64,000 nucleotides of DNA, taken from assembly GCA_025455005.1 (NCBI GenBank), contig JALONH010000005.1:62001-126000 (forward strand), given 5' to 3'. Below are positions 584 through 4,183 of the stretch, piece by piece. The position numbers were made by a program, and so were the translations under genes. Position 1 is the first letter of the stretch. Each line of letters starts with the position of its first letter. The notes under the pieces were generated by a model, which did not search any database, had not been told where the DNA came from, and worked only from the letters and a program-made list of their open reading frames with translations. This DNA comes from Cytophagaceae bacterium. Lineage in GTDB: Bacteria > Bacteroidota > Bacteroidia > Cytophagales > Cytophagaceae.

Positions 584-1879
584 TTATTTGTAGAGAGGGT
601 ATTCCGCCATCCATGCATTAATATCCTTACGAACAGCCTCTATTTTACTCTCGTTTATATGATTCATTAGTACAGTATCAATAGCGTCTACTATACGTTC
701 CATATCGCCCTCTACTAAGCCACGAGTAGTAATAGCGGCGGTGCCTACACGCATTCCGGAAGTAACAAATGGCGACTTATCGTCAAAGGGTACCATGTTT
801 TTATTGATGGTGATATCTGCTCGAATCAAAGCGTTTTCAGCATCTTTACCGGTTAAGCCTTTACTTCTTAAATCAATTAACATTAAATGGTTATCTGTAC
901 CACCGGAAATAATATCATATCCTTTGTTAACAAATGCAGATGCCATGACTTTTGCATTCAATTGAACTTGTTTTGCATACTGCAAGTAATTATCCGACAA
1001 GGCTTCGTGAAATGCTACTGCCTTAGCCGCAATGACGTGTTCTAATGGCCCTCCTTGAGTACCCGGGAAAACGCCCATATCTAACAAATTGGACATCATT
1101 CGAATTTCACCTTTTGGCGTTTTTAAACCATACGGGTTTTCAAAATCGTTACCCATCATAATCACCCCACCCCTTGGTCCTCTCAACGTTTTGTGGGTAG
1201 TGGTGGAAACGATATGACAATATTGCATAGGGTCGTTCAATAATTTTTTTGCAATCAAGCCTGCAGGATGTGAAATATCTGCTAACAACAAAGCGCCTAC
1301 TTGATCTGCAATCTTACGGAAACGAGCATAATCCCAATCCCTGGAATAAGCAGAAGCTCCACATATAATCAATTTCGGTTTTACACGTAGTGCCGTCTCT
1401 TCTACTTTATCCATATTAATCAAGCCGGTTTCTTTTTCAACACCATAAAAATTAGCTTGATAATATTTACCCGAAATATTTACCGGCGATCCATGCGATA
1501 AGTGCCCGCCATGGGATAAATCAAATCCTAAAATAACATCACCGGGATTTAATAAAGCCAACATGATAGCAGCGTTAGCTTGTGCACCGGAATGCGGTTG
1601 TACGTTTGCCCATGCAGCTCCAAACAATTCTTTCAAACGATCAATGGCGATTTGCTCTACTTGATCCACTACTTGACAACCTCCATAGTAACGTTTTCCC
1701 GGAAGTCCTTCTGCATACTTATTGGTCAAAACACTGCCCATCGCTTCCATCACTTGCTTAGAAGTAAAGTTTTCAGATGCAATCAATTCAATTCCTTCTT
1801 CCTGACGATGCCATTCTTGTTGAATTAAATCAAATACTTTTGCATCTCGAGCGATTGTTTTAAATGAAGCCGTTATCAT
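584..1879 (-). CDS. glyA: Serine hydroxymethyltransferase
   Basis: This PLP enzyme interconverts serine and glycine while charging tetrahydrofolate with a one-carbon unit in the cytoplasm. The 431-residue product has the normal family length. It carries the N-terminal [12 protein letters not shown] motif, the [13 protein letters not shown] loop and the PLP-binding motif [14 protein letters not shown] with the Schiff-base lysine at about residue 230. The start is an ATG at 1879. A promoter-like TAATTTTA lies on the minus strand at 1914-1921. The gene precedes tatC on the same strand; its other neighbour is an unrelated transporter. Confidence 0.97.
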
Positions 1880-2002
1880 GATTTGTTGTTAAATAGAGTT
1901 GGTTTTGAGACGGTAAAATTACGTCTTTTATAGGAGGTTTTAAAGCTTTTTTTACATTCATTATAACCTGATTTACAAGTTTTTAATTTATTGACAATGG
2001 AT

Positions 2003-2980
2003 TTATAAATACCATCTGCCCAAAGGCCACTTTGTTCTACAGGACGCTGTTTTGGGGGGCATACCTGTCCTCTTGTTTTTACTCAAAGTCCATTTATCTG
2101 TGTTGAGGTAATCACTGCTCAACATAAGTATAACGGCTAAAAGCAAAAGAGAAGCTGACAATAAAAACTCCCGACCGTAGTGTTCGTCTGTTAACCAAGT
2201 GCTTAGAACCAAGGCTACTAATGGATTAACAAAAGAGTGTGTCGCAACGGCTATTGGTGAAACGCGCACTAATAAATAATTGTAGGCCGTATAAGTTATT
2301 ATAGACCCAAATACAACTAAATAAAAGAAGATATACCAAGCGGTAAGAGGTATGTCCGATGGAGTAAACGTTTTATCATCTCCATTCCACAGAGCGATAC
2401 CACCTCCAATCATAGAAGCAAAACTCATTTGAATACCGGAAGTAACCCAAGGCGATGTTGGCAAATCGATAGATCGTGACAATACAGCTCCAATAGCTCC
2501 AAATAGAGAAGCGAACAGCAATAGTATCAAATACCAAGTGGATGTAGGTTGGTTCAGCTCTTTTTGCATGAACACAACACCTGCTATACCACATATTAAT
2601 CCTATCAACAAAAGATTGGGTATTTTTTTTCGATGAACGATCGGATGGAGCGCTGCTATGAATAAAGGTTGACAGCAAAGTAACACTGCAATTAATCCGG
2701 AACCTAAGTATTGTTGCACCCAAACGATACTTGCATTAGAAAGAATGAAGAAAAAGACTCCTATTATCATCGCATTTTTAATTTGATGTTTAGAGGGAAA
2801 GAGGTCTTTTCTAATATAAGCAATACTAAAGGCTACCAGTGCCGCAAGGAATAATCGAAGGAAAATAAATAGGAAGGGAGGAAACCATTCCATGGCATTT
2901 TTTACAACGATATAATTGGATCCCCATATAAAGTAAATACAGGAAAAATTCAGTAGGATGATGTTTTTATTTGTTTTCAT
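2003..2980 (-). CDS. EamA/DMT-superfamily transporter (YedA-like)
   Basis: This is a predicted inner-membrane metabolite exporter of the drug/metabolite transporter superfamily; the substrate is unknown. The 325-residue product has about ten hydrophobic segments in two EamA halves, with the family-typical IYFIWGSNYIVVKNA at the N-terminus and a second-half motif around TAYNYLLVRVSPIAVA. The last 20 residues or so, after LSKNKRTG, are basic, hydrophilic and not EamA-like; they start at a run of six G at 2054-2059, so a frameshift or natural tail at the very end is possible. The ATG at 2980 lies only 14 bases past a terminator hairpin that can be disrupted by an alternative hairpin, suggesting control by attenuation. 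Confidence 0.88.
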   Translation of the reverse strand: MKTNKNIILLNFSCIYFIWGSNYIVVKNAMEWFPPFLFIFLRLFLAALVAFSIAYIRKDLFPSKHQIKNAMIIGVFFFILSNASIVWVQQYLGSGLIAVLLCCQPLFIAALHPIVHRKKIPNLLLIGLICGIAGVVFMQKELNQPTSTWYLILLLFASLFGAIGAVLSRSIDLPTSPWVTSGIQMSFASMIGGGIALWNGDDKTFTPSDIPLTAWYIFFYLVVFGSIITYTAYNYLLVRVSPIAVATHSFVNPLVALVLSTWLTDEHYGREFLLSASLLLLAVILMLSSDYLNTDKWTLSKNKRTGMPPKTASCRTKWPLGRWYL

Positions 2981-2994
2981 GTCTGTCGAAAATT

Positions 2995-3022
2995 AAGAAG
3001 CCCGAATTTTTCCGGGCTTCTT
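2995..3022 (-). terminator. Leader terminator hairpin just upstream of the EamA gene
   Basis: A perfect 10-bp stem pairs 2995-3004 with 3013-3022 around an 8-base loop. On the minus strand it is followed by a moderately U-rich stretch (TTAATTTT). Only 14 bases separate it from the EamA start codon. Its transcript-proximal arm (3013-3022) is shared with a competing hairpin at 3015-3042, so the pair has terminator/antiterminator geometry. Confidence 0.6.
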
Positions 3023-3160
3023 TCAAATAAGGTTTGAAAGCCGTTTTCCCGGTAACACAAGTTGATGAATGAATGGACGAGCTTAGCCCTTTGAGCGCAG
3101 GCTGTTGGGCGTAGAGATACAGATGGTTTCATAATGGATATAGTTTAATTGTTGGAAATA
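2995..3160 (-). promoter_or_regulatory. Candidate attenuator or riboswitch-like leader of the EamA gene
   Basis: No protein-like frame is seen between the terminator at 3167-3198 and the EamA start. Reading 5' to 3' on the minus strand, the leader holds a GC-containing stretch (about 3060-3115) that can form local stems. Next comes an alternative hairpin in which 3033-3042 pairs with 3015-3017 and 3020-3027 around a 5-base loop, and then the terminator at 2995-3022. The last two share bases, so they exclude each other. I recognise no known riboswitch consensus (TPP, cobalamin, SAM-I, glycine and guanidine were considered). Function is inferred from geometry only. Confidence 0.4.
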
Positions 3161-3166
3161 CTGAAA

Positions 3167-3198
3167 ATAAAAAAGCCTCCTGATGTTCGTCAGGAGGC
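3167..3198 (-). terminator. Intrinsic terminator
   Basis: A 9-bp GC-rich stem pairs 3175-3183 with 3190-3198 around a 6-base loop. On the minus strand it is followed at once by a run of six T. It ends either the LCIB-like/uvrA transcript or the candidate small RNA. Confidence 0.85.
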
Positions 3199-3330
3199 CT
3201 CACTTAGGTAAAGGTATAGTACTACTTCTTACATAAAGTCCTGACCGGCATTTCGCAAAGTGCGACTGCTATTCTAGATGCCTTATGAAGCGAGTTGTTC
3301 AACATGTCTATTATTTGAAGTTTTATAAAA
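3167..3330 (-). ncRNA. Candidate small structured RNA, possibly SRP-RNA-like
   Basis: The minus strand has a TTGACA box at 3351-3356, then about 150 bases without a coding frame, then a strong intrinsic terminator at 3167-3198. The middle contains GGTCAGGAC, a three-pair hairpin with a short loop, then AAGTAGT. This resembles the apical domain IV of bacterial SRP RNA (GGTCAGG ... AAGCAGC). Flanking CACTT and AAGTG can pair to extend the stem. The usually invariant AGCA is AGTA here and the GGAA tetraloop is absent. It could therefore be a divergent SRP RNA, a 6S-type RNA, or just the 3' untranslated region of the LCIB-like gene. Confidence 0.33.
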
Positions 3331-3409
3331 GAGCCATTTTAATTGTATAATGTCAAGCGTTTAGTTGAAAGTTTCCATTTTAAACATAAAATGTATGCTA
3401 AGCCTGTTG

Positions 3410-4183
3410 TTACAATTCTTTAAATGCTTTCATATGTGTCATATCTACCGATTTAACCGCTTTAATATCGCTTACATTCAATACTTCAAAATTACGGATA
3501 TCGATGTAATCTTGATGATTTGGATCGGTATTGATGATAACCCCTCCTAAGAAAATAATACGCTGGCAATGAAATTCGTTCTTGGCCATTGCGACATACT
3601 TGTGTAATAGTTTATGTATGATATCATACGTCTTATCTGTAATCGCTTTTTTAGGAAATGCACTGTTTACTATATCGTGCTTGAACGGCATCAAACTTCT
3701 TTCTAATAAAATTTGCTGATAGTCCACTTCAGATGCCATAGGAACATACACTTCTTCGTCTTCTTCGGTAATCAAACGGTCTAATGCCAACATTAAAGCT
3801 CCACACGAATTGGAGTCGGCCGACTGTCCTATACGACGCATTCGACCTAATTCACCTTCTTCGTTAATTCCAATATGTGGGCCATAAAAGATAAAGGCAT
3901 CCCCACCATCCGGAATATGATGCGCATAAGCTACCATACCGGTAAAACCGGTATAAGGTAATCCACCTAAACCGCCCATTACAAACGGTCGACTTAATAC
4001 TTTACTAAAATCAGCAGAAAAGTTAGCATCATCGCTGCAGATAGATGTTGCAAAAAGAACTTTGGTTAAATCTACCTGATGTTCTTTTTGAAGTTTTGAT
4101 AAATACTTTTCTACGGCTTCGTCTCCCGCAACGGCACCGGGATAAAATTGTTGAATACGCTTTTCGATTTCCTTGAATTCCAT
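3410..4183 (-). CDS. LCIB-family protein, putative beta-type carbonic anhydrase
   Basis: The 257-residue soluble protein resembles the limiting-CO2-inducible B/C (LCIB) family, first known from algae and containing zinc carbonic anhydrases. Seen in the sequence: SICSDD around Cys49, the glycine-rich FVMGGLGGLPYTGFTG, AYAHHIPDGG around His88/89, FYGPHIGI around His103, GRMRRIGQ and SNSCGAL around Cys127. Cys49, His88 or His89 and Cys127 are my candidates for zinc ligands. The start codon is 12 bases past the uvrA stop, so it is probably cotranscribed with uvrA, an unexplained pairing. There is no signal peptide. The family assignment rests on motif memory only and activity is not shown. Confidence 0.6.
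   Translation of the reverse strand: MEFKEIEKRIQQFYPGAVAGDEAVEKYLSKLQKEHQVDLTKVLFATSICSDDANFSADFSKVLSRPFVMGGLGGLPYTGFTGMVAYAHHIPDGGDAFIFYGPHIGINEEGELGRMRRIGQSADSNSCGALMLALDRLITEEDEEVYVPMASEVDYQQILLERSLMPFKHDIVNSAFPKKAITDKTYDIIHKLLHKYVAMAKNEFHCQRIIFLGGVIINTDPNHQDYIDIRNFEVLNVSDIKAVKSVDMTHMKAFKEL

Follow-up and report, generated by a model that had tools for sequence, protein, structure and literature searches.

A two-unit leader before an EamA transporter gene in Cytophagales resembles serial leader-peptide attenuators

Introduction

How is an orphan transporter gene controlled when a terminator-like hairpin ends just before its start codon? In the window, that is, the whole stretch of 64,000 nucleotides analysed here from a Cytophagaceae genome (G000; relatives are coded G001, G006, G009 etc.), this arrangement precedes a gene for an EamA (DMT) transporter. 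A first-pass annotation had described two hairpins on the minus strand that exclude each other and had proposed a riboswitch or attenuator, possibly with an unknown aptamer. The hairpins are indeed present. Within 3160-2981 (minus strand), GGCUUUCAAA (3042-3033) pairs with UUUGAAAG (3027-3020) and GCC (3017-3015) to form an early hairpin, the arms AAGAAGCCCG (3022-3013) and CGGGCUUCUU (3004-2995) form a 10-bp terminator, the two structures are mutually exclusive, and 14 bases separate the terminator end (2995) from the EamA ATG (2980).

These hairpins turn out to be the second half of a longer leader on the minus strand, built of two units that each combine a short ORF with an antiterminator-terminator pair. 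We propose that the leader comprises two ribosome-mediated transcription attenuators in series that sense valine and perhaps alanine codons, a reading to which we assign a probability of about 0.7.

The leader and its two units

On the minus strand the order is uORF1, T1, uORF2, T2 and EamA (Table 1). The coordinates given earlier thus hold for the hairpins and fall short of the complete element, which is approximately 145 nt longer and includes a further attenuator. Terminator T1 (3201-3172), the stronger of the two, had been missed along with its antiterminator and the two leader ORFs. As a whole the leader folds better than its shuffled versions (z -2.8 to -3.8).

Table 1. Features of the EamA leader and gene (window positions)
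Feature	Position	Strand	Evidence
uORF1, 27 codons, MLNNSLHKASRIAVALCEMPVRTLCKK*, putatively translated	3222..3305	-	alignment with G006 uORF1 and with leader peptides from other genera
GTC valine codon 14 of uORF1, GCA alanine codons on both sides; proposed stall site	3264..3266	-	family codon statistics
Antiterminator 1, 5' arm GUCAGGA	3239..3245	-	pairs with UCCUGAC 3195-3189; p=0.020 by shuffling
Terminator T1, 12-bp stem, then T-rich tract	3172..3201	-	terminator scan and folding; counterpart in G006
uORF2, 51 codons, spanning T2 and sharing ATGA with the EamA start	2977..3132	-	same overlap in G006
GTC valine codon 19 of uORF2; putative sensor	3076..3078	-	V19 also GTC in G006
Antiterminator 2, CCGGG 3052-3048 with CCCGG 3016-3012, enclosing hairpin 3040-3033/3027-3020	3012..3052	-	folding, G006 comparison
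Terminator T2, weak U-tract	2995..3022	-	z -4.8; conserved before EamA in G006
EamA (DMT) transporter, 325 aa	2003..2980	-	PF00892, 4e-29

In unit 1, the segment captured by the antiterminator arm is part of the T1 5' arm. In unit 2, folding extends T2 to 12 bp with an AAAA loop (-18.8 kcal/mol), and none of 200 shuffled sequences folded as well. Its U-tract is poor (CUUCUUAAUUUU), and T2 is absent from the list produced by the terminator consensus scan. The early hairpin together with the outer helix exceeds chance to a moderate degree (z -2.4; 5 of 200 shuffles did as well). The better conserved antiterminator of this unit is the CCGGG/CCCGG outer helix around an 8-bp hairpin; taken by itself, the outer 5-bp match does not exceed chance (p=0.42 by shuffling), and antiterminator 2 is credited because the outer helix is conserved in G006.

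Bacteroidota-type promoters (TTG, 19-21 nt, TAnnTTTG, at most two mismatches) were found just upstream of uORF1 in G006, G015, G079 and G142, and the same pattern scan found none upstream of uORF1 in the window. Directly upstream of T1, TACCTTTA (3224-3208, minus strand) resembles the Bacteroidota -7 box (TAnnTTTG); a transcription start there would exclude uORF1 from the transcript.

Conservation in a close relative

A search for EamA in the genome contigs gave five loci, among them the G006 contig, whose EamA is 49% identical to that of the window and also has the T2 hairpin just upstream. Alignment of the leaders revealed two consecutive units in both genomes, with both hairpins of the first-pass annotation conserved and an identical distance between T2 and ATG. 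The neighbouring genes differ: in the window, EamA has uvrA and an LCIB-type carbonic anhydrase gene on its upstream side and glyA on its downstream side, whereas in G006 it comes after a large unrelated ORF and is directly followed by an aminotransferase gene. Since the hairpins are found in both, they travel with EamA.

The G006 counterpart of the antiterminator-1 arm, GGUUCGG, pairs with CCGGACC of its T1 (p=0.030 by shuffling), so that the arms have changed in sequence between the two genomes with the pairing kept. Across genera, too, these arms vary in sequence and remain able to pair. Antiterminator 2 has the same outer helix in both genomes, around an inner hairpin of different sequence; unit 2 is represented by these two sequences, from which column-wise covariation is not obtainable. 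The uORF2 alignment has internal gaps of 6, 6 and 9 nt, all multiples of three, as expected of a translated frame.

Predicted folds and arm matches

When a ribosome was placed upstream and the terminator 3' arm left out, folding gave the antiterminator for the window as well as for relatives (computed P values 0.84-1.00); with the arm masked, the terminator was predicted (P 0.64-1.00). Ribosome edges in these foldings are assumed values; in G006 the assumed edge of unit 1 falls one base inside the arm, giving no P, and unit 2 was folded for minimum energy only. Shuffle tests of the arm matches gave p=0.002 to 0.57 per unit and, combined over 15 related units, 1.4e-7, a value that excludes two units not recognised by the scanner. 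Among 165 other terminators in the fetched sequence, 17% had an arm match scoring at least as high as window antiterminator 2 and 11% scored 17 or more (T1 scores 18), and a single arm match is consequently weak evidence by itself. For unit 1, antiterminator and terminator are mutually exclusive in the window and relatives alike, with the arm in or beside the leader ORF; for unit 2 the same statement rests on conservation with G006.

Related leaders in Cytophagales

We scanned for units that combine a leader ORF with a terminator whose 5' arm can pair with a segment further upstream. The scan placed single units ahead of EamA in another genus of the window's family (four genomes) and in a second family (two genera), thus in three genera of the order besides those of the window and G006. 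The EamA proteins with leaders are not one clade and occupy two places on the tree; leaders have hence arisen or disappeared repeatedly, or have moved. All five genera have His at codon 7 of the EamA uORF1 (3287-3285 in the window). His-7 is also present in the uORF1 of the G009 aminotransferase gene, and sensing of valine and alanine codons leaves it unexplained.

A leader-peptide HMM run against 390 genomes of the order added a single near-identical copy, in G142, with nothing else convincing among its matches; the four weak matches among 395 genomes of the class had no terminator in the scan. In the same 390 genomes the unit-2 covariance model retrieved only its two source members and, with E=0.004, a segment of G357 that is part of a coding sequence and was taken for a chance match. 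G142, with 6% contamination, carries near-identical EamA leaders on contigs 40 (L104) and 148 (L191). Their leader peptides differ at six codons, with His-7 and the terminator loop unchanged, and the copies perhaps derive from two strains.

The same kind of leader is found on another gene. In the ilvB neighbourhood of G015 a two-unit leader precedes an aminotransferase gene. By sequence its product is related to PH0207, LysN and kynurenine/aminoadipate aminotransferases, and it is 42% identical to the enzyme of the same family encoded behind EamA in G006. Among the 12 other family genomes with a near-complete gene, a lenient five-pair scan detected units before it in ten, and for the remaining two (G009 and G012) the leader ORFs and terminators were identified by visual inspection of the sequence. 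These aminotransferase leaders consist of one or two units, some of them weak (arm match p=0.57 in G001). In a DNA pattern search for a GCN-GTC run, the units near matches all precede the aminotransferase gene. In G000 there is no aminotransferase orthologue at the threshold used, and upstream of its leu-ilv genes the scan gave no leader of this kind.

Codon usage of the leaders

Codons were counted in 17 leaders after removal of near-duplicates, using those before the antiterminator arm or, where no arm was assigned, the whole ORF. Valine (p=1.5e-11) and alanine (p=5.5e-7) codons are enriched, and isoleucine and leucine codons are not, for which reason branched-chain amino acids in general were rejected as the signal. 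GTC accounts for 33 of 58 valine codons (p=1.4e-17), although it is the rarest valine codon, making up 10.8% of valine codons in the window genes and 7-10% in relatives. For the EamA leaders alone the figure is 11 of 16 (p=6e-8), a less selected number, even if the GTC idea arose partly from these leaders.

The binomial tests treat related leaders as independent, and several leader ORFs, including the aminotransferase ORFs of G009, G012 and G007, were chosen by eye. In addition, Val/GTC was reached only after His, antibiotic stalling, branched-chain amino acids and Ala had each been weighed as the signal of these leaders, and the p values carry no correction for this. Kinship, selection by eye and the late consideration of valine mean that the p values overstate the case, and we rely on the size of the effect. 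The window alone has two GTC among three valine codons, one before the arm in each unit, with valine itself not enriched, and the valine assignment accordingly rests on the family. Our best guess from the sequences is that the sensed amino acid is valine, maybe also alanine.

Proposed mechanism

The scheme is built on sequence, conservation, predicted folds and codon bias; translation, stalling, termination and the signal are what it proposes. Transcription would start upstream of uORF1. With charged tRNA plentiful, the ribosome would pass the valine and alanine codons of uORF1 and reach the stop codon, covering the 5' arm of antiterminator 1; T1 could then form and RNA polymerase would stop. 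If valyl-tRNA for the rare GTC codon, and perhaps alanyl-tRNA too, were short, the ribosome would stall at approximately codons 12-16, and the free arm would capture the 5' half of T1, letting the polymerase continue. The decision would be repeated at uORF2, antiterminator 2 and T2. Because uORF2 of the window and of G006 lacks a stop codon ahead of T2 and overlaps with the start of EamA, ribosomes may be passed on to EamA by translational coupling. EamA would hence be made under valine or alanine limitation, in G006 along with the aminotransferase.

Two further points speak against this scheme. As uORF2 spans T2, an unstalled ribosome might itself disrupt T2. Moreover, an exporter induced by starvation is not an obvious design, and EamA would have to import, or the signal would be something else. 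One can imagine a Cytophagales regulon of leader-ORF attenuators, some of them serial, that uses a rare valine codon as sensor and ties the orphan EamA to the aminotransferase, with EamA importing valine, alanine or their 2-oxo acids and the His-7 peptide maybe adding nascent-chain stalling; this wider picture is speculative, and we regard it as possible yet unlikely in full.

Alternative explanations

The same architecture could serve a response to ribosome-targeting antibiotics or to slow translation in general, as in the bmrB leader, with EamA acting as a drug exporter. EamA proteins are frequently labelled drug/metabolite exporters, and the codon-7 His of all EamA uORF1s hints at a peptide-specific step. 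The bmrB terminator likewise lies inside a leader ORF (PMC4191407), and in the window uORF2 does contain a terminator before a putative exporter. This explanation, however, accounts neither for the rare GTC codons and the Val/Ala enrichment nor for the same leaders on the aminotransferase gene, and we consider it improbable.

It has also been considered that the hairpins are ordinary terminators of an upstream transcript or small RNA, EamA having its own promoter. T1 is a good terminator downstream of the carbonic anhydrase gene, but in G006, where an unrelated gene lies upstream, both terminators again precede EamA, with T2 equally far from the ATG. T2 is also just 14 nt from the start codon, and comparable leaders precede EamA in other genera. 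The possibility raised earlier, that the terminator merely ends an upstream RNA, is thus very unlikely.

A metabolite riboswitch, with an unknown aptamer ahead of T2 as expression platform, is scarcely credible: mutually exclusive hairpins, a long leader and the first-pass argument that EamA genes can follow riboswitches would suit it, but the leader is occupied by two short ORFs and the switch arms, no conserved fold was seen outside these arms, the isolated segment 3023-3140 shows no folding advantage over its shuffles (z 0.96), the unit-2 model matches only two known members among 390 genomes, and relatives share leader-ORF and codon content, not an aptamer-like fold. An Rfam search of the leader returned no family at threshold. 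No T-box was found at the Rfam gathering threshold or in the permissive list for 2900-3450, and the weak matches to PyrG leader, sR035 and rimP look like fits to generic terminators. Of the original proposal, the attenuator remains, backed by the conservation of both hairpins and by a family of leader-ORF attenuators.

Relation to known systems

The ilvL and ivbL leaders of E. coli are classical ilv-type leader-peptide attenuators. An attenuator of this type is also known for Corynebacterium ilvBNC (PMC11857589, PMC10272879). The leaders described here share with them a short ORF with valine-rich codons and mutually exclusive antiterminator and terminator, and differ in that Val and Ala rather than Ile/Leu are enriched, units can be serial and the genes are EamA and aminotransferase. 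In the tandem attenuators of Salmonella mgtCBR there are likewise two short ORFs per leader, each expected to control alternative stem-loops (PMC3641672); signals and genes differ, and the likeness is one of architecture. The bmrB leader of B. subtilis bmrCD is an ORF of approximately 53 codons that precedes an exporter gene and includes both antiterminator and terminator, but it has one unit, responds to antibiotics, serves an ABC transporter and ends 119 bp before the next gene with no overlap (PMC4191407). In the same phylum, the transcriptome of Flavobacterium psychrophilum strongly hinted at leader-peptide attenuation upstream of operons for amino-acid biosynthesis; the likeness lies in the general mechanism, and the passages on these operons name no EamA or tandem valine leader (PMC9723704).

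Tandem attenuators (PMC3641672), leader ORFs containing their terminator (PMC4191407) and ilv-type leaders are thus already known. The combination of rare valine codons, serial units, EamA and aminotransferase in Cytophagales was not found in the open-licence papers searched. According to attenuator theory, high sensitivity needs a particular synonymous codon (PMC1183508), which the use of the rarest valine codon fits. The leader offers a concrete, testable signal for an orphan transporter from a family that is hard to annotate, and adds serial leader-peptide attenuators, as proposed here, to a lineage with few described; the same kind of leader on the aminotransferase gene is independent evidence for the pathway context.

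The gene and its neighbourhood

The similarity of EamA to the YedA and 2A78 models is weak and under the cut-offs of those models. An LCIB/C-type beta carbonic anhydrase gene (3410-4183, minus strand; PF18599, 3.9e-49) sits between uvrA and the EamA leader. On the same strand, glyA (SHMT; 584-2003, minus strand) has its start 123 nt behind EamA, and the terminator scan lists no minus-strand terminator in this interval; glyA could be co-transcribed with EamA and so share the control exerted by the leader.
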